From positions 1 through 64,000 of the forward strand of contig QKAV01000113.1 of NCBI GenBank assembly GCA_003247185.1: a stretch of 64,000 bases of DNA, written 5' to 3'. Shown in pieces: positions 2,005-58,079 of the stretch; within the stretch, counting starts at the first letter, position 1, and each line of letters opens with the position of its first letter. Below the pieces are notes generated by a model, which saw nothing but the letters and a program-made list of their open reading frames with translations, made no database searches and was not told the origin of the DNA. Source of the stretch: Crocinitomicaceae bacterium. GTDB lineage: Bacteria; Bacteroidota; Bacteroidia; Flavobacteriales_D; Crocinitomicaceae. A program made the translations under genes and the position numbers.

Positions 2005-2112
2005 CGCACCGCAACACGCGGTATAGTTAATTGCCTGTGCAGTGGCTAATCTTGTAAAAGGCTGCTTTTTTGACAGGTTGCAAATGCTTGGCCTGGTATG
2101 TTAAATTATTGG

Positions 2113-43872: not shown

Positions 43873-44196
43873 TTAGCCCGGAACATCCGGAATTTCTATT
43901 TTCAGATTACCCGTGCTTCTTGTGAAGGTTATGTTGAGCATAATCAGCCGCTCTGTTGTTGCCTGAGTACCGTTATCGGTGTATTTCCCGGTTTCCATGT
44001 ACTCATTTAAGGCCTCATACAGCCTGATAATTTTGTTTTCCGCGATTTCAATTTTCAGATTGATCTCCATGTCAGAGAACATGTGGAAATCTGTAATAAA
44101 CCCGTATTGGTTAACGATGTTTTCTATTTGGTGGATAGCAACATGCCTCTCCTTATTACAGTATGCTTTCCAGTAAAAATGTGGTTTGTCTTTCAT
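43873..44196 (-). CDS. hypothetical protein
   Basis: MKDKPHFYWKAYCNKERHVAIHQIENIVNQYG...; ATG at 44196 is preferred over track start 44325. Confidence 0.6.
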   Translation of the reverse strand: MKDKPHFYWKAYCNKERHVAIHQIENIVNQYGFITDFHMFSDMEINLKIEIAENKIIRLYEALNEYMETGKYTDNGTQATTERLIMLNITFTRSTGNLKIEIPDVPG

Positions 44197-44851: not shown

Positions 44852-44918
44852 CAGTGATTAGTAATTAGTGATTAGTGATTCGTGAATAGTGATTAGTGAT
44901 TAGTGAATAGTGAGTAGA
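44852..44918. repeat. degenerate heptamer tandem repeat (TAGTGAT/TAGTGAA)
   Basis: agtgattagtaattagtgattagtgattcgtgaatagtgattagtgattagtgaatagtgag. Confidence 0.8.
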
Positions 44919-45303
44919 GAGAGGTGAGATGTAAAAGTTGGGAAATGGTGTAATTGTTAAATAATTTCCGAAGACGACTATTTCCGGCAATCCTTAACTG
45001 TACAGCAAAAAGACTTTTGAGTTTTTATGCCCTATGAAAATATTTATTAACAGAGTGGGGCTGAAATGGATAAAAGATTATTTTTGCTTTAAAGGTTAAT
45101 TTTTAATCTTTTGTAAAAAAGTCGATATGAATTACCGCACAGCGAACGTCGGAACCTCTTCTGGATATTTTCGGGAAAGGGCAGGAGATAGAACTAGCAT
45201 GACGACCGGGGTTTATCCTCTCGTGAGCGAAAAGAGCATACAACGAATTATTGCACCGTATGACACTTTGTAATTTATTGATTGAGGAAATAAGCCACCA
45301 TAG

Positions 45304-45344
45304 AGGTGTTGTTGTAAGCCCGATCTGGGCATATAACAACACCT
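45304..45344. repeat. long imperfect hairpin
   Basis: AGGTGTTGTT gtaa GCCC gatct GGGC atat AACAACACCT: 10-bp perfect outer stem plus 4-bp inner stem. Confidence 0.8.
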
Positions 45345-45498
45345 TTGGTGAATATGTAAGCGAGTTACCGCCAAGCATAACACACAGCAACTAAGACAGT
45401 GCAATCGTTTTGAAAAGGATAGTTTTTCAAAATTTAATTACAGAAAAGGTTTAAATTTGTTTTCAGAATTTAAACAGTATTTATGTGAATAATTTAGA

Positions 45499-46602
45499 AT
45501 GTCAGATATAAAATTAAAAAATTTTACCATTAAGGGGTATAAAAGCATAAAGACAATTGAAAACTTTGAGCCTCGTTCCATTAATATTTTAATTGGACCT
45601 AATGGTGCAGGTAAAAGTAACTTTATTTCATTTTTCAAGTTTTTGAGTTGGATGCTAAACTCAGATGGAAAACTTCAAGAGTATGTCGCATATTTAGGTG
45701 GAGCTAATGACATATTACATGATGGAGCTGACGTGACAAAAAGTATAGATGCTCATATCGAAATTCAAACCTCATCTGGAATAAATGAATACTTGTTTAG
45801 TTTAATGTTTGCTAAACCTGATAAACTTGTATTTAGAGAAGAGAAATATCGTTTTACTCCTCTTCGCATTCAAGGAGAGCCTCGTTGGAGATCATGTGGC
45901 GTTGGACATGAGGAAGCTCATTTACCGGAAGTATCTAACCAAACAGCAAGTGCAATTTTAAATCTTTTAAAAAAACTAATAGTTTATCAGTTCCATAATA
46001 CTAGTGATACTGCGCCAATGCGTTTGAAATGGTCTGTGTCTGATGGTAGATGGTTAAAACAAAATGGAGAAAATTTAGGAAGTTTTCTTTTTCGATTACA
46101 GAATGAGGAGAAACCTTATTATATACGAATTGTAAAATATATTCGTTTGGTATTGCCTTTTTTTGATGATTTTGAGTTATATAATGAATTTGGACAAATT
46201 CTTTTACGGTGGAAAGAAAAAGGGACAAATAAAGTTTTTAATGCGGGTCAAGCTTCGGATGGAATGCTAAGGACTATTGCATTAATAAGTTTACTAGCTC
46301 AGAATCCAAGAGACTTACCAACAGTTTTATTTTTAGATGAACCTGAATTGGGATTACATCCAAGTGCAATTGATGCAGTTGCTGGTTTAATAAAGGCTGC
46401 CTCTTCAAATTGTCAAGTATTTATTGCGACACAGTCTATAAGCTTAGTGAATAACTTTGAACTTGATGATTTGGTTGTAATCGACAGAAAGAAAAGAAGT
46501 TCTGAATATAAACGTCCCGATAGTGATCGTTTACAAGTTTATCTTGAAGAATTTTCAACAGGTCAAATTTGGGAAAAAAATATCATAGGAGGTCGTCCAT
46601 GA
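45499..46602 (+). CDS. AAA-family (AAA_21/SMC-like) ATPase, probable defence-type
   Basis: LKNFTIKGYKSIKTIENF, Walker A GPNGAGKSN, FLDEPELGLHPSAIDAVAGLI, FIATQSISLVNNFELDDLVVIDR. Confidence 0.88.
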   Translation: MSDIKLKNFTIKGYKSIKTIENFEPRSINILIGPNGAGKSNFISFFKFLSWMLNSDGKLQEYVAYLGGANDILHDGADVTKSIDAHIEIQTSSGINEYLFSLMFAKPDKLVFREEKYRFTPLRIQGEPRWRSCGVGHEEAHLPEVSNQTASAILNLLKKLIVYQFHNTSDTAPMRLKWSVSDGRWLKQNGENLGSFLFRLQNEEKPYYIRIVKYIRLVLPFFDDFELYNEFGQILLRWKEKGTNKVFNAGQASDGMLRTIALISLLAQNPRDLPTVLFLDEPELGLHPSAIDAVAGLIKAASSNCQVFIATQSISLVNNFELDDLVVIDRKKRSSEYKRPDSDRLQVYLEEFSTGQIWEKNIIGGRP

Positions 46603-47285
46603 AATATTTAAATATAATTGTGGAAGGTAACTCCGAGGAAGCTTTTGTTAACGATGTTTTAGTAAAACATTTTGCATCACTTAATATTTTTATTTCTGCA
46701 CGTAAAATTAAGACTGGATGGGATAAACTTAATAATAAGCCTGCAAAAGGAGGATTACTGAAATATATTAAATTTCGAAATGATGTATTGCGATGGATTG
46801 AATCAGATAGGAATCAACCTCAATTTTGGTATACTAGCATGCTTGATTTATATGCATTCCCAAAAGATGATTTGAGTCCATACAAAGATAACATTCAATT
46901 AATTAGCGATCCGTATACAAAAATTGTAAGTCTCGAAACCGCAATTGCTCAAGACATAAATCATCCTAAGTTTATCCCATATGTTCAATTACATGAATTT
47001 GAGGCTTTTTTATTGGTTAATCCAGACAAATTGATTACTATGTATCCAAATGAACAAACTGGAATAAATCGTTTAAAAGGGGAAATAGAGAATAAAAAGC
47101 CAGAGGAAATAAACGAATCTATACAGACGGCTCCATCAAAAAGGATTATTAAATATTTGCCTGATTACGAAGGACAAAAAGCACAAGTAGGGCCATTAGT
47201 TGCTGAAGAAATAGGTTTAACTGCGTTACGGCTTAATTGTCCTCATTTTAATGATTGGATAACAAAACTTGAAAATGTAACTTAA
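46599..47285 (+). CDS. DUF4276 family protein
   Basis: MKYLNIIVEGNSEEAFVNDVL...; FWYTSMLDLYAFPKD; YVQLHEFEAFLL. ATG overlaps the ATPase stop (ATGA), which fixes the start at 46599. Confidence 0.8.
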   Translation: MKYLNIIVEGNSEEAFVNDVLVKHFASLNIFISARKIKTGWDKLNNKPAKGGLLKYIKFRNDVLRWIESDRNQPQFWYTSMLDLYAFPKDDLSPYKDNIQLISDPYTKIVSLETAIAQDINHPKFIPYVQLHEFEAFLLVNPDKLITMYPNEQTGINRLKGEIENKKPEEINESIQTAPSKRIIKYLPDYEGQKAQVGPLVAEEIGLTALRLNCPHFNDWITKLENVT

Positions 47286-47473
47286 AAACGATAGCTGGTA
47301 ATACACGGTTATAAAACATTGATGATTAAGTGATTAGACTGGTGCGCTACCTAGCATCAAGGTTCTGTGTCGGGGGATATGTTCGTAGCTCCAAAAGCTC
47401 CATCGTTTCACACCGTCAATCGTTTGCATTAATTCAAAATAGAAGACACAATTATTAACATAGACAATAAATT
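47286..47473 (+). repeat. cassette-like non-coding spacer
   Basis: 188-bp gap between single-orientation ORFs; the left end tggtaatacacggttataaaa resembles other spacer left ends. Confidence 0.4.
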
Positions 47474-48214
47474 ATGGCAAAATTTTTAAACACAACAGGA
47501 GTTTCATACCACTTAGAAGAACTTATCAAAGGGACAAAGGACAGATTAATATTAATAAGTCCATATTTGCAGTTTACTGACAGAATAAAGGAACACCTTA
47601 GCAATTTAAACATTCAAAAACGCGACATTCGGATTGTTTACAGGGAAAACAAGTTACAACTTGAAGAAAACAACTGGTTGGAGAGTCAAATAGGTATTCG
47701 GACCAGTATTTGTAAAAACCTGCACGCCAAATGTTACTTGAATGAAAATGAAGCAATTATTACTTCAATGAATTTGTATGAGTTTTCTCAACAAAACAAT
47801 AACGAAATGGGAATTTACTTTACCAAAGCCCAAGACCCAGATCTATACAATTCAACTTTTGAAGAAGTTCAGCGACTGTTGACAATAAGTGATGAAATTA
47901 GAGTTTCTGTGAAGAAAGTTACCTCGGATACACCTCCGAAAACTGAAAAGAAAAGTGTGGATACAAAATATCCAAATACAAAATCAACGGGCGTACAATC
48001 AGGTTTTTGCATAAGGACAGGAATCCCTATTCCATTTAACGTGGAAAAACCGTTGAGTTATGACGCCTTCAAAAAATGGAGTGAGTTTGGCGATCCTGAC
48101 TATCCCGAAAGGTTCTGTCATTTTTCAGGTGAACCGTCAAATGGAGAAACAAGTGTGAGCAGACCAATACTAAAAAAGAACTGGAAAAAAGCAAAAGAAA
48201 TATTTAACCTATGA
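47474..48214 (+). CDS. phospholipase-D-like family protein
   Basis: LEELIKGTKDRLILISPYLQFTDRI; single HAKCYLNENEAIITSMNLYEFSQQNNNEMGIYF (HxK...N) motif. Confidence 0.8.
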   Translation: MAKFLNTTGVSYHLEELIKGTKDRLILISPYLQFTDRIKEHLSNLNIQKRDIRIVYRENKLQLEENNWLESQIGIRTSICKNLHAKCYLNENEAIITSMNLYEFSQQNNNEMGIYFTKAQDPDLYNSTFEEVQRLLTISDEIRVSVKKVTSDTPPKTEKKSVDTKYPNTKSTGVQSGFCIRTGIPIPFNVEKPLSYDAFKKWSEFGDPDYPERFCHFSGEPSNGETSVSRPILKKNWKKAKEIFNL

Positions 48215-48282
48215 GACGAGAGAAAGGAAGGACTACTGCGAATATCAGCTAACCGGTAAATTCGGCATCTGTGGTTTTCGGT

Positions 48283-48395
48283 GGGTATCTTTCCACTCAG
48301 GCATCTTTTCGGAAAGAAAGGAAATCGCCTAGATATCTTGAGACACAGCCGAATAATTTGCCCCTGCGTATGGTTTCCTGCGTAGGCATAATTTG
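48283..48395 (+). repeat. spacer copy A, homologous to 50711-50826
   Basis: gtatctttccactcaggcatctttt...gaaatcgcctagatatcttgaga... aligns along its length to copy B. Confidence 0.8.
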
Positions 48396-48406
48396 AAAAA
48401 ACAATC

Positions 48407-48973
48407 TTGATTGAAATAATAAATACATATGACAAGGTTATTCAAACTACCTCTAATCTAGTTAGGGCTTATAAAATATATCCAAAAGTCTTTGAAAAAG
48501 AAGAATATAAATGGTTACATAAGTTTCTGGACAAAGCACTTTTTACAGTTTTAAATCACTTAGATTTAGCAATTGGCCTTAAATATGTTCAAGTAAGTCT
48601 GGCTGTTGGCAATAAATTAGAAGCGAACTATTTTTCTAGAGTATTAGTATTAACTTCTCATGAAATCCTAAATGATTTGAATAAAATGCTCGGAAAGGAT
48701 ATCAGATTAGAAATACAAGAAAGAATTGGTATCGAAGGATTAAAGGAAATTGACGAGTTGACAAAAGAAATGAATTGTCTGAGGAAGAAGCATTTAGAAA
48801 AATTAAAACGCTTGAGAAATAAAGTTATAGGACATAAATATGAATACGCCTACCAACAAGCAGAAATGATTACAGATATTGATATCAAAGATATCTATCA
48901 TGTTGGAAAGGATATTTTTAATGTTCAAATGAAATTTATCCAGATTTACAAGAAAATGCTTGAAAGAATTTAA
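48407..48973 (+). CDS. hypothetical protein, possible HEPN-like fold
   Basis: All-helical; LKRLRNKVIGHKYEYA contains an R-x5-H motif. Apparent TTG start. Confidence 0.5.
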   Translation: MIEIINTYDKVIQTTSNLVRAYKIYPKVFEKEEYKWLHKFLDKALFTVLNHLDLAIGLKYVQVSLAVGNKLEANYFSRVLVLTSHEILNDLNKMLGKDIRLEIQERIGIEGLKEIDELTKEMNCLRKKHLEKLKRLRNKVIGHKYEYAYQQAEMITDIDIKDIYHVGKDIFNVQMKFIQIYKKMLERI

Positions 48974-49550
48974 TAAAGCTATTAATAGTAAATAGGACTC
49001 TGAGCAGTCTGCAAAACCCGGCGAAGCGTACAGGTTGAACCACATCCCTTAACAGGCTATGTACTTAAGGGCAGTTATTGGAATAGTTCAGAGGGAAATG
49101 GGCTGTTGTGGTTGAAGGTATTACTGAATTTAAAGTAACCAAAGCTATCTGATTCTGATAGATTAATGCTGTAAATGATTGCGTTTGACCTTTGTTAGTG
49201 AGCTGAAAGGATAGTTATCCCTCTCCATACAAAGCAGGCGACATCTTGGAAAAGGATTAAGCAATTGTAAGGCCTGTTCAGCAATCGTAAAACCCGATTT
49301 CTTTTTTTTATCAGTATTTTTTTTGTGAATAATTCCTGAATTATTGAAAGAATCCGGTATTTTTGAAAAAGTTATCCTGGCTGGCGGGATTTAGTTTAAC
49401 ATACAGTATAAAAAGATGTCGAGATAGTATGTTATATATGAGATTTAGTCCGTTTAAACTTCTCAACGGTTTGAAAGGTTTGAGCGCGCAATCGTCAGGT
49501 TTAACTATACTAAAAGATAGCAGTAAGCTAAAAAGAAACATGTATGCACA

Positions 49551-50051
49551 ATGAGAAAGGCACTAACACAAAGTGACATAAAAGAGATAAGGTATCAATG
49601 TCGAATGGGATATGTCCTGCCAACTTTGCTTTTCATTATTGGGACTATTTTAACCGGAGCAATTTATATTATATACTTTGGTGCTGACGAACACGATAAT
49701 GAGATGTTATTAGTTATTACATCACTATTTATTGGATTGGCATTATATACAGGTTACAGAATGAATTGGAAGTATATTTCGGACATTAGATTTAACGAAA
49801 AGGAAATTGAAACAAAAATAATTCAACGGAAAGAGTCTAAAAGAGATTATGAAGCGGGTAGTGGAACCTTATATATTGGTCAGGAGATGAAGGGGTTTAA
49901 CTCATATAGCATTGTTGTTGAAAATATTAGGTACAGAATTGATGAAGAGATGTTCTCGGCTTGTACTGTTGGAGACGAAGTGTTATTCAATTATGCACCT
50001 AAGAGCAGATATTTGATAAATATTGAACTAAAGAAAAAAGACAGGCTATAA
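49551..50051 (+). CDS. hypothetical membrane protein
   Basis: Two TM segments (VLPTLLFIIGTILTGAIYIIYF, MLLVITSLFIGLALYTGY) followed by a soluble beta-rich domain. Confidence 0.65.
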   Translation: MRKALTQSDIKEIRYQCRMGYVLPTLLFIIGTILTGAIYIIYFGADEHDNEMLLVITSLFIGLALYTGYRMNWKYISDIRFNEKEIETKIIQRKESKRDYEAGSGTLYIGQEMKGFNSYSIVVENIRYRIDEEMFSACTVGDEVLFNYAPKSRYLINIELKKKDRL

Positions 50052-50089
50052 CAGCGGTTCGTCACCATACCCACAAACCGTTATAAGCC
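50044..50089 (+). repeat. compact cassette-like spacer with terminal inverted repeat
   Basis: ggctataacagcggtt (50044-50059) versus aaaccgttataagcc (50075-50089). Confidence 0.65.
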
Positions 50090-50099
50090 AATTTAATAA

Positions 50100-50672
50100 T
50101 TGGAAATGACAGAATTTTATCCGCCAATAGAGACACGCGAGACATTAGAACTCATAGCAATTGCTAATGGGACACTTGATGACTGGCAGCAGGAAGCAAT
50201 AGATCAGGCAAAGGTTGAGCTAAAAAATCGTGGTATAACGGAGGATTATCAAAAAAGGTTTATTGACAAATGGATTGAGGAAAGAAAAGAGTCGGAAATT
50301 ACTTATCAAAAGCAGTTGGAACTAAACAAGACAGCAAGTTATTCGAATAGCGAAATGATCTGTATTTTGCTATTAGCACCTTTCATTCTTATGGGTAAGT
50401 GGACTTTTGGCCTTTCTTTGAGTGAATTGAAACGAGAAAACTACTCAAAAAAGATTAAGCAGAGACTATTGCTGCTTATTGGAGGAATAGGATTTTGGAT
50501 TTCAATTATAGTTCTAGGTTCTAATTTCTCGGAGAATAAGAGATTAGAGGATATTGAAAAAGTGGATATTTCTGCATGGGAGAAAAATCGTTACAGGACA
50601 GACGAGTTGACCAATGACAACAATTCAAAAGACACGTTGAAAAATGAAAAAATAAAGGAAAACGGGTTATAA
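50100..50672 (+). CDS. hypothetical membrane protein
   Basis: N-terminal helical module IETRETLELIAIANGTLDDWQQEAIDQAKVELKNRGI, then two TM segments. Confidence 0.65.
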   Translation: MEMTEFYPPIETRETLELIAIANGTLDDWQQEAIDQAKVELKNRGITEDYQKRFIDKWIEERKESEITYQKQLELNKTASYSNSEMICILLLAPFILMGKWTFGLSLSELKRENYSKKIKQRLLLLIGGIGFWISIIVLGSNFSENKRLEDIEKVDISAWEKNRYRTDELTNDNNSKDTLKNEKIKENGL

Positions 50673-50710
50673 CATCAACTACCTGTCGAGTTCGGTAGTG
50701 ATAGTTCCCG

Positions 50711-50826
50711 GAGTATATCTTTCCGCTCAGGCGTCTTTTGGCAAGAAATGAAATTGCCTGGATATCTTGAGGCGCCGCCTAATATTCCGTCTATGCATAA
50801 AGCTTCCTACGTTCTGAAGCATAATA
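50711..50826 (+). repeat. spacer copy B, homologous to 48283-48395
   Basis: gagtatatctttccgctcaggcgtcttttggcaagaaatgaaattgcctggatatcttgagg... Confidence 0.8.
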
Positions 50827-50883
50827 TGACGCAGTGTGGATACATATAAATCTTTCAATATTTAACCATTAAATTGACTAATT

Positions 50884-51546
50884 ATGTTCGAGGGAATTGA
50901 AATTGCAGCAACAATAATAGGGATAATTGGAGCAATTTGGGCTTTTGTAAAATTCGTTTTCAATCCATTTTTTAAAAAACGGGAAGAGTATAAAAACATA
51001 TGCAATGTGGTTAATGACAGTTACGAAAGATGGAAAGAACTTGGATACACTGTGCGAGGAGGTTCGATGGTTTCACACGACGACTTTTTGATTGTCAATA
51101 AATACCGTTCTAAATTCAAAAATAGGTCTCCCGAAATTAAAGCCTATCTTTTAAGAAACGCGATTCAAAATGGACTGGGAGGTAATTGGGGATTTTGGAT
51201 TAATATGAACAAAGATAATAAGTTGATACTTCTTCATCTTTTTTTATCATTGGATAAATCAGGTGGTTTAAGACCTGCCTGGCGTTCTGCCTATATTTTA
51301 GAAAAGATTTACGCAAATAAAAGTGCTGAGATAGATAAATTTGTCGCTGAAAATGAAAAATTTCACTTAACTCAAAAATATTTTTTGGATATTATAAAAA
51401 GTAATTCAGTAGAGAAAGAATTACAAAAATTATCAAGAAAAGGGACAAAAGAAGAAAAGGAAAAATTGAAGTTTATTGAAGAAGAGATTTTAAGATTTTC
51501 AAAACAGGTAAACGACTTTGTTAAATATCAGACAATTGTAATATGA
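50884..51546 (+). CDS. hypothetical membrane-anchored protein
   Basis: N-terminal TM IEIAATIIGIIGAIWAFVKFVF followed by a soluble charged domain. Confidence 0.65.
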   Translation: MFEGIEIAATIIGIIGAIWAFVKFVFNPFFKKREEYKNICNVVNDSYERWKELGYTVRGGSMVSHDDFLIVNKYRSKFKNRSPEIKAYLLRNAIQNGLGGNWGFWINMNKDNKLILLHLFLSLDKSGGLRPAWRSAYILEKIYANKSAEIDKFVAENEKFHLTQKYFLDIIKSNSVEKELQKLSRKGTKEEKEKLKFIEEEILRFSKQVNDFVKYQTIVI

Positions 51547-51738
51547 CATAAAATTGAACTGCATTACAAAGTATAGCGGGCAATATGGGTTTCCATGGTT
51601 TTAGGGGCATAGTAGTCCGCTCAAACTGCATTGCGGTTTGATAGTGAACTACCACGCAATATGGCACTACTCATACAATTAATTGTTATGGGGTATTTGA
51701 AAAGAAAAAATGAGCAACCTGAGAAAACTTAAAATACT
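51547..51738 (+). repeat. cassette-like structured spacer
   Basis: Contains hairpin tcaaactgcattgcggtttga (51621-51641) and gcaatatgg repeated near both ends. Confidence 0.5.
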
Positions 51739-52131
51739 TTGACAATATTTGAAATCATATTCATTCTTTTGGCAATTTCATTTGCAGTTTTTGTCACAGT
51801 TGGACAAATAAAAGTTCTTTATCAGAGACACTTAAAATCTTATCAGACAGAAATTGAAGATTTTCTAAAAGGTCAAGGTCTAACTATGCAGACTATCAAT
51901 TCTCCAACAAAGAATGACTGGAAAAATAGTCCATTTAAAAAACCGGAAAGATGTGGTATTGGCTTCGGATACATCCAAATTAATGGTGCAATTGTAACTT
52001 GGAATGACCAGAAATATAAAATAATTCAAACAAATAAAGGGAAAATAATTTGGTTGGAAATTGACACGACCTATTTTAAGAAGCCTGTACTTACATTCAA
52101 AGCAGGAAAAATGAAAAACCAAAGAAGATAA
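51739..52131 (+). CDS. hypothetical membrane-anchored protein
   Basis: N-terminal TM IFEIIFILLAISFAVFVTVG; the assigned start is non-ATG. Confidence 0.55.
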   Translation: MTIFEIIFILLAISFAVFVTVGQIKVLYQRHLKSYQTEIEDFLKGQGLTMQTINSPTKNDWKNSPFKKPERCGIGFGYIQINGAIVTWNDQKYKIIQTNKGKIIWLEIDTTYFKKPVLTFKAGKMKNQRR

Positions 52132-52163
52132 AAGAGAGACATAAAAATGAGAATATTAAAAAC

Positions 52164-52244
52164 TTGACGGAGACTTGCCCTGCCTGTGGGTTTAGGCAAA
52201 ATGAGAATGATTTTGAATGTCCAGATTGTGGACTAAATTGTTGA
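52164..52244 (+). CDS. possible zinc-ribbon microprotein or orphan zinc-ribbon fragment
   Basis: TTG-initiated 26-aa frame: (M)TETCPACGFRQNENDFECPDCGLNC*, with two CxxC knuckles; below the ORF-track length cutoff. Confidence 0.35.
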   Translation: MTETCPACGFRQNENDFECPDCGLNC

Positions 52245-52412
52245 TGAAATGATAAAAAAATGCCCCATAACAAATTGTAAATTGCATCGCGGATACACTG
52301 CGGTTTCTTGTCATTGCTTCATTCCTGACCGTCATGTCCTATCAGGCACTGACGTTCTTCAATATTCGCAACGACAGCATGTACCAACCTTTATAAGCCA
52401 ATTTTAAAAAGA
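52245..52412 (+). repeat. cassette-like structured spacer
   Basis: Right end ttataagccaattt (52391-52404) is identical to the right end of the 50052-50099 spacer; contains actgcggtttc. Confidence 0.55.
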
Positions 52413-52856
52413 ATGAAAAAAATAATATTCACCTTGCTTTTAATAGGTATTGTTTCGACAATACATGCACAAAAAATGAATTTTGACTTTTCTAACTCAA
52501 GTGGCAGAAAATATAACTCAGAAACATTTAGCGAACAACTCGAAAAGGAGTACAATGCTAGCTTTAAAGTGAAAATTATTCTTCTTTTAACGTCAAGCAA
52601 AAATGATTCGACTTATTTAAGACAAGAAAAAATCTTAACGAAAATTGATGCAGAAAGATTTCAAATAATTTATGTCGTTGCTTGTAAAAATGAAGAATTA
52701 ACTGACAGATATTATACAAGTAGAGAAACGGCCAAGAAATTAATGGGAGAAACAGACAGTTTTAGAGTTTATATAGTTGACGCAGTAGGAAAATTAAAAT
52801 ATAAATCTGACAGAGTTATTTCACAAAATAAAATCAAAGAATTGGTAAATGAATAA
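52413..52856 (+). CDS. secreted hypothetical protein, DUF4174-like
   Basis: Signal peptide MKKIIFTLLLIGIVSTIHAQ; LLLTSSKNDSTYLRQEKILTKIDAERFQIIYVV...FRVYIVDAVGKLKYKSDRVIS. Confidence 0.6.
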   Translation: MKKIIFTLLLIGIVSTIHAQKMNFDFSNSSGRKYNSETFSEQLEKEYNASFKVKIILLLTSSKNDSTYLRQEKILTKIDAERFQIIYVVACKNEELTDRYYTSRETAKKLMGETDSFRVYIVDAVGKLKYKSDRVISQNKIKELVNE

Positions 52857-53003
52857 AAGCTGGCTATAACCATCTTTATATAGCAGGCGGGGAGCATTGC
52901 AGTCTGATATGTCAGACTTTTTGCGCACTTTCCTGCGGGTCTGACAGTATTTCTGTTGGAAATCCCGCATGACCACATACAATTGACCATTAATTGCAAG
53001 CAA
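52857..53003 (+). repeat. cassette-like structured spacer
   Basis: Perfect hairpin agtctga tatg tcagact (52901-52918); right arm ggaaatcccgcatgaccacatac resembles right arms at 1140 and 55557. Confidence 0.6.
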
Positions 53004-53723
53004 ATGGAACGATATTACAACGCAGGATATTATTTGATTAAGAAACATCCGATTGATTTCGGGATTGATAATGGAAAGATTGTTGCTACTTGTAGTGGAT
53101 GCATTAACATTACCGCCTTTGATTTTTGGGCTTTATGTTGGACAATGCAACTTGATAATAAAGACAAATCGGAGCTAGGATTAAATGACCAATCTATTAA
53201 ACAAATTCAAGAATGGACAGAAAAAAGGTTTTATGACGGTAGGATTGGATATGGAAACGTTTTTCCTGACTTGAAAATGGCGTTAGAGTTTAAGGATTTA
53301 TTTTATAAGGATAGACCTGAAATTGAAATTTTAGCCATTGATTTTTCCGAGACTGAAACAAATAACCTGATTGAAGATTTTGCCCCAGGAGAAAACGCTG
53401 GATTTAATTTTAATAATGGTGTTTTTGGATTAAGAGATAATCTATTAAAAAAGAACTATGAAACTGCTGACACAATATCTGACTTTTTAGGATTTGATTT
53501 TATTGGCGTTGAATGTGATGGTACATTTCATTCATTTTACTGCCATGATATTACTAAAGAATTAATAGATAAGTTCGGATTGACGCTTAATGAACATGGA
53601 TTATTTGAAAGTATCCCAGACTCTGATTTAATTCGAGATTATTTAAATAGCCAAGAAACTGGTTTAGAACCTGTACCCTGGTATATAGTAAAAGTAAAAA
53701 AGATAAGGAATGCCAGCAACTGA
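53004..53723 (+). CDS. hypothetical protein
   Basis: ATG at 53004 (MERYYNAGYYLIKKHPIDFGIDNGKIVATCSGC...); the track start lies inside the spacer. Confidence 0.7.
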   Translation: MERYYNAGYYLIKKHPIDFGIDNGKIVATCSGCINITAFDFWALCWTMQLDNKDKSELGLNDQSIKQIQEWTEKRFYDGRIGYGNVFPDLKMALEFKDLFYKDRPEIEILAIDFSETETNNLIEDFAPGENAGFNFNNGVFGLRDNLLKKNYETADTISDFLGFDFIGVECDGTFHSFYCHDITKELIDKFGLTLNEHGLFESIPDSDLIRDYLNSQETGLEPVPWYIVKVKKIRNASN

Positions 53724-53870
53724 CAATGTGTATAGTTCATGAAGGTTTCAGTACTTTGCGAAGCATTGACTCTCACTTCAACTTCGGTAACGGAGGATAG
53801 GAACGCGGCATGCAATCGCCAGTTCTGCATATACTAACCGATATCACTAATTTAAAAAGCGACTGCAGAA
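53724..53870 (+). repeat. cassette-like non-coding spacer
   Basis: 147-bp gap; right end tgcatatactaaccgatatcactaatttaaaaa. Confidence 0.45.
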
Positions 53871-54215
53871 ATGACAGAGAGACCAAATATTCTTGTGGTT
53901 TGTGGACGAAATAAAAAACGGAGTAGAACAGCCGAATCGATTTTTAAGAATGATAATCGATTTAGTATTCGTTCTGCTGGATTGAGTCCAAAGAGTGACA
54001 GGAAAATTTCGGAAAAAGACTTGAATTGGGCTGACCTGATATTTGTAATGGAAACAGGACAAAGAGCACATCTTTGGGGATTATACAGACATATGGAACT
54101 ACCGCCTATTGAGATTTTGGACATTCCTGATGATTACGAATTTATGGATGAAGAATTGATTGAATTGCTTACCAGCAGGATAAATGATACTTTAAAGTTC
54201 GTTTATAAATTATGA
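53871..54215 (+). CDS. low-molecular-weight protein tyrosine phosphatase-like protein
   Basis: ILVVCGRNKKRSRTAESIF (CX5R), FSIRSAGLSP, WADLIFVMETGQRAHL. Confidence 0.85.
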   Translation: MTERPNILVVCGRNKKRSRTAESIFKNDNRFSIRSAGLSPKSDRKISEKDLNWADLIFVMETGQRAHLWGLYRHMELPPIEILDIPDDYEFMDEELIELLTSRINDTLKFVYKL

Positions 54216-54219
54216 TTTC

Positions 54220-54702
54220 ATGAAACGACACAGAGGATTAAAGCGATACTATAAGAACTTATCAATTCAAAATGATTTCGATAAAATGACCTGGCTGGAT
54301 TTTGAAAAACCAGATATTTGGTCTAAAAATTGGCACGTTCATTTTGATAGGTATAGCTATGGAAATAATAGTTTTAAGAGAAGAAAACCTCACCTGGATA
54401 AGTTATTTCGTCATTTTGAGATACTGGTAGATAAAACACAAAGATTAGAATCTGGTTTTCAATTATATACTATTTTGCTTGATTTTAATAGTTATAGTGA
54501 TGCTCTGTTTTTACATACACCCAATCCAGACAATTCTCAATTTCTATTCAAGATAGAGGATTTAAAAAATGAACCAACATTGAAAAACAAACAATTGAAA
54601 GATTACATTGAGCAGTTAAATGGATTTGAAAAGCTATATGGACAGTCTGATGAAGCATTTTGTCTATTGTATAAAAGAGGGATTGGACTGGATTTCAAAT
54701 AA
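54220..54702 (+). CDS. hypothetical protein
   Basis: Starts 4 nt after the phosphatase stop; probable two-gene unit. Confidence 0.7.
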   Translation: MKRHRGLKRYYKNLSIQNDFDKMTWLDFEKPDIWSKNWHVHFDRYSYGNNSFKRRKPHLDKLFRHFEILVDKTQRLESGFQLYTILLDFNSYSDALFLHTPNPDNSQFLFKIEDLKNEPTLKNKQLKDYIEQLNGFEKLYGQSDEAFCLLYKRGIGLDFK

Positions 54703-54861
54703 AAAGCTGGTGCAGACATGTATATACAAAATAGGCGAGATAGTAGTAAAATAGATGGTTGTAGCCTGCTTCAATATTGTAACGATTTGAGGAAATTGAA
54801 GTCCGAAGTTGCCAGCTTTGCATTTACTCACCGATGACCGCAATTTAAATAAACATACTAT
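54703..54861 (+). repeat. cassette-like non-coding spacer
   Basis: 159-bp gap beginning aaaagctggtgcagacatgtatata, similar to aaagctggctataacc at 52856. Confidence 0.45.
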
Positions 54862-55458
54862 ATGAATGAATTTCAGGAACGAATAGATTTATTATCAAAT
54901 GACGAACTTTTAAAAGTGATTCGCTTAAAAGATGATTATCAGGAACAATTCTGGCTTTTAGCAGTTGATAACGCGAAGAGAAGAGGATTAAGTAATGAGA
55001 TTGAGAATATTGTGGCAGAAATTCAAAAAGTAGAAATTGAGAAGGAGCAGGAAAGACAAGAGAAGATAAGAAAAGATACTTCGTTGGTTGAGCTTTTTTC
55101 TGAACGGGCTATTATCTCTTTTTCAATACTTTTTACGTCAATAGCAGGTTCTATTCTGTTTGTCTATAATTTGAAAAAATTAAACAGAGAAGGAAGTGAT
55201 ACTGTTTTAATGTTTGGATTTTTATATACAATTGGATTAATATTTTTGATTTACGTTTTGCCTTTTCAAACATTTAATTCGATAGGTTACCTTTTGAATA
55301 TTTTTGGAGGTTTTATATTAAATATTCATTTTGGAAGTAAATATTATCCTGAAGATTTAGAGTATAAAAGGAAAAAGATTTGGAAAGCACTTTTAATTGC
55401 TGCATTGATTAGCGTATTTATTGGATTTATTTATTACGCGATTTCAAAAATCAATTAA
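54862..55458 (+). CDS. hypothetical membrane protein
   Basis: N-terminal helical module RIDLLSNDELLKVIRLKDDYQEQFWLLAVDNAKRRGL, coiled coil, then about four TM segments. Confidence 0.7.
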   Translation: MNEFQERIDLLSNDELLKVIRLKDDYQEQFWLLAVDNAKRRGLSNEIENIVAEIQKVEIEKEQERQEKIRKDTSLVELFSERAIISFSILFTSIAGSILFVYNLKKLNREGSDTVLMFGFLYTIGLIFLIYVLPFQTFNSIGYLLNIFGGFILNIHFGSKYYPEDLEYKRKKIWKALLIAALISVFIGFIYYAISKIN

Positions 55459-55636
55459 CTACTGCCGGTATATGGGAAAGTGCATGCGGGTTTCTGATTT
55501 ATTCGGGCGTATGTGGCTCGTAGAAAAGTCATGTATCAGGATCGGCCCCCGCCTTGTAATCCCGCACGACACTATACTATGAAATGATAGAACCAATAAT
55601 ACCAGAAACACAACATGTATTCAAAAAAAGATAAAA
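55459..55636 (+). repeat. cassette-like structured spacer
   Basis: Left arm gtgcatgcgggtttc pairs with right arm aatcccgcacgacac; the left 18-mer is identical to 1061-1078. Confidence 0.65.
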
Positions 55637-56290
55637 ATGAAAAAGACTGGATTATTACTAATCGGATTGACAATTGCAATCCTCTCAAATGGACAAACCA
55701 TTAAAATTCAGGGAGGAACATCAGTCTCCAAACTCGATTGGCAGATGAAGGGAATGATTACTAATCCTCTATACAATGAAACAATGATTGGGTATTCAAT
55801 CTTTGCCGGGTTAGATTACCTTGATAAGCAATATTATAACTTATCAACAAACATTGGGATGATCAGAAAAGGGGGGCAGGATGAGTTTGCGCTCATTGAT
55901 CAGAATGGAGAGTTAACCGGCCAGACAATTACTGAAATACCGACGTTGGACTATTTATCAATTAATACCATGGTCGAGTTGAAATACAGGATTAAAGAGA
56001 CGGTTACACCATTTATAAGTTTTGGCCCTCGTTTTGATTATTTAGTGAGTCATAGCAGGCATTTCGACAGCATTGAAGATATGGATGAATTAAAAAGTAT
56101 TTCGGTTGGATTAATACTTGGTGGAGGATTGAAATACGACATTTCAAATCTTCAATTCGGATTACGGGCTGATTACTATTTAGATTTCACAAAAGTTGCA
56201 GATTGGTCGATCGAAAATACAGGAAACAGTGGAGAGGTGACAGTAAATACTTTTACATTAAATTTGGCAATTGGATATAGATTAAAATAA
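55637..56290 (+). CDS. outer-membrane beta-barrel (PorT-like) protein
   Basis: Signal peptide MKKTGLLLIGLTIAILSNGQ; barrel pattern ending in NLAIGYRLK. Confidence 0.75.
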   Translation: MKKTGLLLIGLTIAILSNGQTIKIQGGTSVSKLDWQMKGMITNPLYNETMIGYSIFAGLDYLDKQYYNLSTNIGMIRKGGQDEFALIDQNGELTGQTITEIPTLDYLSINTMVELKYRIKETVTPFISFGPRFDYLVSHSRHFDSIEDMDELKSISVGLILGGGLKYDISNLQFGLRADYYLDFTKVADWSIENTGNSGEVTVNTFTLNLAIGYRLK

Positions 56291-56422
56291 TTACAGGTGC
56301 CAACGCACAATATAGCCAATAAGGGTTTTTGTGGTATACGAAACTCATGACCGACTTCAATCTTAGCATTTCATGATAGTGTCGTTCTCCGCAATCATTC
56401 TCAGGCTATATAGCCACCATTA
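56291..56422 (+). repeat. cassette-like structured spacer
   Basis: atatagcc (56310-56317) is inverted relative to ggctatat (56404-56411); contains aagggttttt. Confidence 0.5.
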
Positions 56423-56917
56423 ATGATAATTTTAAAATACATTAAATCAATGGAATACAACTGGACGGAAATATTTAAAAACAAGACAGACAGAGAACTG
56501 TATAATATTTATCTTGGACGAACTTCATTAAATTCAGAGCAAAAAGACTTTGCCCGAATAGAACTTGAAAAGAGAAACTTTGACTTTATAAACCTCGACA
56601 GACAGAGAAAAAAATGGGAACTCGAGAATTTGATTGAAGAAGAGAAATCTTACAGCAAGCTGCTATTTAGAAGTCGTCGTTCATCGGAATATCTGATTAT
56701 TGGTATTGTCGGGTTGGTTATTGCTATTATTTCTCTTTTTTTCATCATTGACCAATACTTTGTTGACCACAAACCGATTGCAGATATTACAAATTTGTTT
56801 TTGCTATTTATAGTGAGTTTTATTTTATCAGCTAATGGGTTTTTACAATATAAATTGAAAAGTTCGAAAGAAAAGTCCCGTGAGGAAAGACTTAAAGAAT
56901 TGATCAACGAATTATAG
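56423..56917 (+). CDS. hypothetical membrane protein
   Basis: N-terminal helical module (EIFKNKTDRELYNIYLGRTSLNSEQKDFARIELEKRNF) and two TM segments; an internal ATG gives MEYNWTEIF. Confidence 0.65.
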   Translation: MIILKYIKSMEYNWTEIFKNKTDRELYNIYLGRTSLNSEQKDFARIELEKRNFDFINLDRQRKKWELENLIEEEKSYSKLLFRSRRSSEYLIIGIVGLVIAIISLFFIIDQYFVDHKPIADITNLFLLFIVSFILSANGFLQYKLKSSKEKSREERLKELINEL

Positions 56918-56984
56918 AAATTACTGCTAATTACCAGATTGTGCAATCCTCTTAGTAAAATCATTGCACTGACTGCCTTAAACC

Positions 56985-58079
56985 CTACCTGTTTTCAGAT
57001 ACAGTACATAGTTTTTCAATATCCTTTACCAGATATTCCAATGGCGTTCTCTCAGTTTTAGGTATGTTCCTGTTATCGGCATTGATCACGATTACCAGAT
57101 TCAATGCAGGAATAATGTCGATAATCTGCCCACCATTACCCGGAATGAACCAGGAATTATAACCTGAATCTGTTTTGACCATTTGCCATTGGTAACAACT
57201 GTAAAAGGGGTGCCTGATTTCTATGTAGGGATCGAATGTCTGTTCAATCCAATCAGCCGGTACAATCTCGGCTCCGTTCCATTTACCTTTATTGAGATGC
57301 AACAATCCGAATTTGGCAATATCCCGGGGTTTCAGTTTAAGTCCTCCTCCTGTATCATAGATACCGTTTTTAGAGAACCATTCATACTTATCTATATTTA
57401 GAGGTTTAAACAGGTTCTCTTCTGCGTATTGCGCGATGTCCTGTCCTGTTGATCTTTTGATGATCTCGCCTAGTATTATACTGTTAGGGCCGCAATAGAC
57501 GTATTCCGTACCTGGCATGGTGTCCATATTAAGCGACAGGGAAGATTTGAGCCAATTGTCTGATTGGTCAATCCTGACTCCCATGTTATCCGGATCATCA
57601 AGGGGGAGCGACAATTCATCCCATTTAAACCCTGATGTCATGGTTAATAGGTGCTGAATGGTGATAAGTCGTTTCAGGGAATCTTTCTCGATATCTTCAA
57701 ATTCCGGAAAGAAGTCAGACATCCTTTGGTCGACATTTTTGATTTTTCCCTGAGCGATGGCAATACCTGTCAGAACGGCGTTGAAGCTTTTGGTATTTGA
57801 TGCAAGAAAATGTAATTGATCTCTATCCCTGCCATTGTAGTATTGCTCAACTACAAGATCGTTATCTGCAATAATCAGCAAATCATGAATGTTCCCGTAT
57901 TTCCCTTCGCAAATGTCCTTATTTATGCTGTTGAACAGAGAAACATTTAAGTGATGTGCTTCCAGGGTTGATACAGTCAATCCATCAGACAGGTCAACAG
58001 GGGCCTGGTAGGAACAGTCATGGCTGGTTTGGCAACTGAGAATACTGATCAATGAGAATAATAATAGTAGCCTTTTCAT
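56985..58079 (-). CDS. beta-lactamase-fold serine hydrolase, lipoprotein
   Basis: Lipobox ISILSC; LASNTKSFNAVLTGIAIAQG (SxxK-like); YVYCGPNSIILGEIIKRSTG. Confidence 0.88.
   Translation of the reverse strand: MKRLLLLFSLISILSCQTSHDCSYQAPVDLSDGLTVSTLEAHHLNVSLFNSINKDICEGKYGNIHDLLIIADNDLVVEQYYNGRDRDQLHFLASNTKSFNAVLTGIAIAQGKIKNVDQRMSDFFPEFEDIEKDSLKRLITIQHLLTMTSGFKWDELSLPLDDPDNMGVRIDQSDNWLKSSLSLNMDTMPGTEYVYCGPNSIILGEIIKRSTGQDIAQYAEENLFKPLNIDKYEWFSKNGIYDTGGGLKLKPRDIAKFGLLHLNKGKWNGAEIVPADWIEQTFDPYIEIRHPFYSCYQWQMVKTDSGYNSWFIPGNGGQIIDIIPALNLVIVINADNRNIPKTERTPLEYLVKDIEKLCTVSENR

Follow-up and report, generated by a model that had tools for sequence, protein, structure and literature searches.

Integrons with IntI (class 1, class 2, Vibrio superintegron) and CALINs have tandem single-ORF cassettes in one orientation, with a hairpin recombination site after each ORF. 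The crossover is at GTT, the start of a cassette is complementary to its own end, attI is next to the integrase gene, and the bottom strand of the site is the more stable fold. The canonical definition requires a tyrosine recombinase IntI with the additional I2-containing domain, an attC site with two outer core boxes and inner boxes, an R' core of GTTRRRY, and an intI gene divergent from the cassettes. The I2 helix has been described as the acquisition that turned a double-strand recombinase into a single-strand one (PMC7790495). A survey of tyrosine recombinases noted that the integron-specific insertion is not fully conserved in its 'integron-like' subgroup, although the parts consulted describe no sites or arrays for members without the insertion (PMC8138268). 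XerA and XerD, the chromosome dimer resolution recombinases, generally act on short double-stranded dif sites and have no cassette arrays or attI. Integrons are a major engine of gene exchange in Gram-negative bacteria, yet a survey with the standard tool reports almost none in Bacteroidetes (IntegronFinder 2.0, PMC9024848: earlier only In0, then one complete integron in Salinibacter).

We analyzed a 64,000-nt stretch of a Crocinitomicaceae bacterium (GCA_003247185.1, contig QKAV01000113.1, positions 1 to 64,000), hereafter the window. The original prediction of small same-strand ORFs with structured spacers and no visible integrase was confirmed, and its reading as an integron-like cassette array was supported. 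Fifteen ORFs (45499-56917) run on the + strand between two minus-strand genes (43873-44196 and 56985-58079), and they are separated by structured spacers. The spacers are more than chance. With a covariance model (R1) built from 26 sites of other genomes only, four spacers in this region scored 37.1, 27.0, 23.9 and 20.1 bits, whereas the best background in the window is about 11 bits. Two further hits revealed a second array piece at the left end of the window (1 to about 2050), which the original prediction had missed. All six hits are on the + strand. A BLAST search of one spacer in 60 relatives gave only one trivial hit, indicating that the covariance model was needed. A search of a phage collection gave no match. 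An ordinary run of co-directional accessory genes, with terminators, RNA genes or REP-like repeats as spacers, would also produce structured spacers, and several spacers fold with only modest z-scores. However, there was no Rfam match in the window or in three intact arrays of other genomes. Together with the cassette and integrase data described below, this refutes the explanation for the family as a whole. For the window alone it would need the model hits to be chance, and we consider it very unlikely.

In the left piece, an attC-like site (378-505, +; 42.6 bits, E 1.3e-7) is followed by a cassette (500-1053, +) with ORF 535-1035, whose start GTTATATACC and end GGCATACAAT match at 5/7 positions beyond the core. 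A second attC-like site (1048-1175, +; 33.4 bits) precedes a cassette (1170-2015, +) with ORF 1180-2004, start GTTGTGGTAC and end GCACCGCAAC (5/7). Only the left half of a truncated attC-like site (GCACCGCAACACGCGGTATAGTTAATTGCC) remains at 2006-2050 (+), and its right half was not found. The main array begins with a unit (45499-47285, +) encoding an AAA ATPase (HEC-01A) and a DUF4276 protein (HEC-01B), a candidate defence pair. It is followed by attC-like site S1 (47297-47427, +; 27.0 bits), whose right half aligns by eye with a Persicobacter site. The next cassette (47422-48243, +) carries the PLD-like ORF 47474-48214, with start GTTTGCATTA and end TACTGCGAAT (5/7). Degenerate spacer S2 (48215-48406, +) shares a 77-nt stretch (74%) with spacer S5. 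An ORF of 188 aa without a Pfam match (48407-48973, +), a long degenerate spacer S3 (48974-49550, +), and an ORF of 166 aa, likely a membrane protein (49551-50051, +), come next. A short site with a shortened loop (50047-50085, +; GGCTATAAC...GTTATAAGCC) scored 12.1 bits, with a bottom-strand fold z of about -4. The cassette after it (50080-50673, +) contains ORF 50106-50672, start GTTATAAGCC and end GGGTTATAAC (6/7). Spacer S5 (50673-50883, +) is a degenerate site and precedes an ORF of 220 aa (50884-51546, +).

Interestingly, part of site S6 (51560-51687, +), at 51617-51680, is 86% identical (E 2e-10) to non-coding DNA in a Persicobacter plasmid array. The cassette after S6 (51685-52271, +) has ORF 51739-52131, start GTTATGGGGT and end GCCCCATAAC (6/7). 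Site S7 (52262-52399, +) scored only 7.1 bits and has a decayed right end, TTTATAAGCC. The next cassette (52390-52870, +; ORF 52413-52856) has start TTTATAAGCC and end TGGCTATAAC (4/7 ungapped). It is followed by decayed site S8 (52861-52998, +; fold z -2.7) and a cassette (52989-53724, +) with ORF 53004-53723, start ATTAATTGCA and end AGCAACTGAC (5/7). After attC-like site S9 (53722-53845, +; 20.1 bits) comes a two-gene cassette (53840-54717, +; LMW phosphatase-like 53871-54215 and 54220-54702) whose start and end match at 4/7. The attC-like site S11 (54715-54838, +; 37.1 bits), an ORF of 198 aa, likely a membrane protein (54862-55458, +), and degenerate spacer S12 with GCATGCGGGTTTC and CCCGCACGACACTATAC (55459-55636, +) follow. 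The array ends with an ORF for an outer-membrane beta-barrel protein (55637-56290, +), attC-like site S13 (56299-56424, +; 23.9 bits, fold z -4.7) and a last ORF of 164 aa (56423-56917, +). Spacers S2, S3, S5, S8 and S12 resemble sites only in part or are too decayed to score, and several sites are unrecognisable. With hand-set anchors, the starts and ends of eight window cassettes matched at 40 of 56 positions, against 20.6 +/- 4.6 for permuted pairs (p = 2e-4). An unanchored version of this test was not significant, so in the window itself the signal is decayed. The suggestion that the array content fits a defence pool is only partly supported: one cassette is the HEC-01A/HEC-01B candidate, but most cassette proteins match nothing.

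The intact arrays of other genomes bear out the prediction of attC-like sites with a non-canonical core and possibly a different recombinase. The Persicobacter array is about 100 kb long, has 122 sites, and is headed by a tyrosine recombinase. A first crude site finder gave an ambiguous start/end test there, which a cleaner site definition resolved. The start of each cassette (GTT+7) complements its own end at 5.23/7 positions, compared with 2.34 for the two ends of one site and 2.39 (sd 0.12) for shuffled pairs. Of the ends and starts of repeated segments, 84% and 53%, respectively, lie within 12 bp of a GTT point, against 3.7% for random positions. These results indicate that units move and duplicate as ORF plus site with edges at GTT. 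Forward ORFs were present in 76 of 78 cassettes, and the bottom strand was the more stable in 54 of 60 sites. The site model is a 20-pair hairpin with outer AAC/GTT boxes, asymmetric spacers and inner TATA boxes. In this model 91% of cells are paired, and the covariation score is 0.626 against 0.154 +/- 0.018 shuffled. Compared with integrons, the core is GTTR with the next bases free, and the inner box is TATA-type with 3 against 5-6 nt spacers.

The array of the window could represent a canonical integron remnant (CALIN) whose cassettes came from an ordinary IntI integron and whose sites simply decayed. The overall architecture is the same and CALINs are common (PMC9668308). However, intact relatives have the same non-canonical sites: only 6 of the 122 Persicobacter sites match GTTRRRY, although 118 have GTTR. 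The Persicobacter integrase scores 198 bits against the TIGR02249 cut-off of 265, whereas it passes the cut-off of NCBIfam NF040815 (226 against 220 bits; 'site-specific tyrosine recombinase/integron integrase', recomb_XerA_Arch), an annotation label that says nothing about cassette arrays or sites. The spacing from KDR to HxLRH is 69-74 residues in 29 array-type integrases and 111-112 in IntI1, IntI2 and Vibrio IntI, and 2a3v aligns in two stretches with the insert missing. The integrases thus lack the about 40-residue I2-containing insert that defines IntI. They appear to branch as sister to IntI. In the window's own genome, of which the assembly is only 77% complete, TIGR02249 found no IntI over cut-off and hit an Xer-like protein. 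We therefore consider a canonical remnant unlikely.

Homologous integrases head the arrays in other Bacteroidota. In 80 named loci, 192 of 192 site hits are on the integrase strand, unlike the divergent intI of canonical integrons, and 188 are downstream. In these relatives, an attI-like palindrome ending in AATT^GTT or TAC^GTT lies about 35-85 bp after the integrase stop codon. The first cassette, matching its own end, lay 35-85 bp after the stop in 27 of 39 loci, against 5 of 126 controls. No such attI is present in the window. Winogradskyella pacifica and W. psychrotolerans are about 94% identical and colinear through integrase and attI, diverge exactly at GTT, and share a cassette at other positions. 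The site model hits 112 of 248 Bacteroidota genomes, and 63 of the 248 have both site and integrase (odds ratio 8.4, p 4e-13, not corrected for shared ancestry). However, the co-occurrence is not significant among the 60 nearest relatives (33/13/7/7, p 0.2), so related integrases may serve other site types or arrays may outlive their integrase.

The integrase has a XerA-like core and an N-terminal domain of about 80-100 residues. The nearest solved sequences are XerA/XerD structures (PDB 4a8e, 5hxy and 1a0p; 217.9, 216.8 and 153 bits), which have the same spacing between the KDR and HxLRH motifs. In a fold search of the predicted integrase, only the recombinase core matched (XerA, IntI), and the N-terminal domain was not identified. 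Given this core, and since bacteria generally have Xer proteins, the units might be moved by the host Xer machinery (pdif-type modules), or alternatively by an IS200/IS605-like single-strand transposase. However, the sites are hairpins of about 130 bp and not 28-bp dif sites. Full-length array-type integrases in relatives mostly score 375-545 bits with one of our search models (A2), while Xer-like proteins score below about 175, and the array position and attI sit with this integrase. Movement by other machinery is thus very unlikely.

We consider it highly likely that the region is a decayed, integrase-less cassette array of an integron-like system that is widespread in Bacteroidota. In intact copies, the integrase and attI-like site are followed by head-to-tail cassettes, each with one ORF (or a tight pair) and a site of mostly 120-200 bp that folds into a long imperfect hairpin. 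We infer, from comparative and not biochemical evidence, that the integrase recognises the folded site and cuts next to G of the GTT core. It would excise a cassette as a circle with a whole site and insert it at attI or another site, so that each integrated cassette carries matching sequences at its two ends. The sites of the window are mutated, and three searches found no such integrase in its genome, which is only 77% complete, so the array is probably a relic. We found no publication describing this system in the literature searched, from which preprints and most subscription journals were absent. Intact copies appear to have been missed because neither the enzyme nor its DNA sites fit the standard definition.

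It is somewhat more likely than not that Bacteroidota carry their own phylum-wide class of integrons, whose integrases form a sister clade to IntI and recombine folded sites without the I2 helix. That would mean single-strand cassette recombination either predates I2 or arose a second time, with the N-terminal domain as a possible substitute. Sister enzymes without I2 that serve hairpin sites make the proposed role of this helix directly testable. If these arrays are active, a large part of the phylum has an unrecognised cassette pool, including candidate defence genes.

Between the minus-strand genes at 43873-44196 and 56985-58079, we found 15 ORFs, all on the + strand. Most of them match no family. 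The exceptions are an AAA ATPase/DUF4276 pair, a PLD-like protein, a phosphatase-like protein, and a beta-barrel protein. The AAA ATPase/DUF4276 pair (45499-47285) is the first unit and corresponds to HEC-01A/HEC-01B in PADLOC, a candidate anti-phage defence system. An Rfam scan gave no match. Interestingly, an 18-bp inverted repeat (AGGTGTTGTTGTAAGCCC/GGGCATATAACAACACCT) at 45304-45344, just upstream of the first ORF, carries GTTGTAAGCC and TATAACAAC, as if a cassette start and a cassette end had been brought together by loss of the ORF. Short tandem repeats of the GTGATTA/GTGAATA type are located near the left border of the array (44853-44930). Within the array, spacers S2 and S5 share 77 nt at 74% (48307-48383 and 50736-50812), although their flanking ORFs are unrelated.

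We searched the spacer DNA against plasmids by BLAST and obtained one hit, 64 nt at 86% identity in non-coding DNA of Persicobacter psychrovividus plasmid pPP2. This plasmid has an array of about 100 kb of small ORFs, nearly all on one strand, and its spacers read YYYAAC-AAYRGSTATAA ... TCATAGCC-nnnACC-GTTR. A tyrosine recombinase of about 380 aa is at the upstream end of the array, on the cassette strand. The gene crosses the origin of the pPP2 record and is therefore missing from the distributed gene table. In the 122 sites of this array, the seven bases after GTT at a cassette's start match the complement of the seven bases before AAC at the same cassette's end at 5.23 positions on average. 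In contrast, the two ends of one site match at 2.34 positions and shuffled ends at 2.39 (sd 0.12). This is what integron-type recombination at GTT leaves behind. Repeated segments inside the array end within 12 bp of a GTT point in 84% of cases and start there in 53%, against 3.7% for random positions. However, only 6 of 122 sites fit the classical GTTRRRY.

We aligned 26 sites from three genomes, and the alignment supports a 20-pair hairpin. In this alignment, 91% of cells are paired (96% in the inner helix), and the covariation score is 0.626 against 0.154 +/- 0.018 for shuffles. The covariance model built from these sites, R1, finds six sites in the window at 20-43 bits, all on the + strand. 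Four of these are in the region of the original prediction and two are near the left end (378-505 and 1048-1175). The latter are the two clear sites of a second, decayed array piece of three cassettes (1-2050), which begins at the contig edge, about 43 kb from the main array. R1 finds sites in 46 of 60 relatives and in 112 of 248 genomes across the phylum. In the window's own genome it found three matches, equal in number to the three strongest window hits, so there is no sign of a better-preserved array elsewhere in the assembly.

Integrase homologues occur in 93 of 297 phylum genomes at 1e-40. In four genomes (G176, G192, G075, and G134), a cassette array begins directly downstream of the integrase. 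In 80 named loci from Flavobacteriia, Cytophagales, Bacteroidales and others, all 192 site hits are on the integrase strand and 188 are downstream, although most loci have more upstream than downstream sequence. R1 was trained on sites from Persicobacter, G176, and G192, and G176 or G192 may be among these organisms. In 27 of 39 loci, against 5 of 126 control positions, the first cassette starts 35-85 bp after the integrase stop, behind a palindrome such as GGATATA(n)TATATCC-AATT^GTT. Across 248 genomes, sites and integrase co-occur (63 both, 49 sites only, 18 integrase only, 118 neither; odds ratio 8.4, p 4e-13), without correction for ancestry. Among the 60 nearest relatives, the association is not significant (p 0.2). 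A second site type, GCTAACAGCGGTTTGGC...GCCAAGCCGCAAAACGTTAGC, follows related integrases in the G075 and G134 loci. R1 was not built for this type, and the true prevalence is probably higher. One genome (G256) carries several integrase homologues (6 matches) and at least two separate site clusters.

We also compared the loci of two Winogradskyella species. W. pacifica and W. psychrotolerans are about 94% identical through the integrase and the attI-like palindrome up to GTTGT, and then carry unrelated first cassettes. Interestingly, one cassette with its flanking sites occurs at a different position and twice in the second species at 92%. This is the unit-wise strain comparison that the original prediction had asked for, though not in the window's own species.

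The nearest solved proteins to the array-head enzyme are archaeal XerA (218 and 217 bits). VchIntIA (2a3v) aligns in two stretches because the I2-containing insert is absent. The spacing from KDR to HxLRH is 69-74 residues in these enzymes, 71-77 in XerA/XerD, and 111-112 in IntI. In a maximum-likelihood tree rooted on XerD, IntI (support 100) and the Bacteroidota enzymes (90) are sister groups (94), although the sampling is small and the inner nodes are weak. The N-terminal domain, which is unmatched in Pfam, is predicted by AlphaFold with fair confidence to be a small beta-alpha fold.

Integrons were reported as nearly absent from Bacteroidetes with IntegronFinder 2.0 (PMC9024848). An integron survey selected on the additional domain (PMC2426708), and the published attC models cover 11 taxa without Bacteroidetes (PMC8352920). 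One survey of tyrosine recombinases noted that the insertion is not fully conserved in its integron-like subgroup (PMC8138268). We found no paper describing this system in the literature searched, which did not include preprints.

The window copy is a decayed array. Its sites have lost pairs, its cassette ends match at 40 of 56 positions rather than nearly all, and no such integrase was found in the assembly, which is incomplete. We infer that the array-head enzyme is the catalyst in this system and that it acts on folded single strands. The system works like an integron, but it is not an integron as usually defined, since two defining features, the I2-bearing IntI and the GTTRRRY core, were tested and did not hold.
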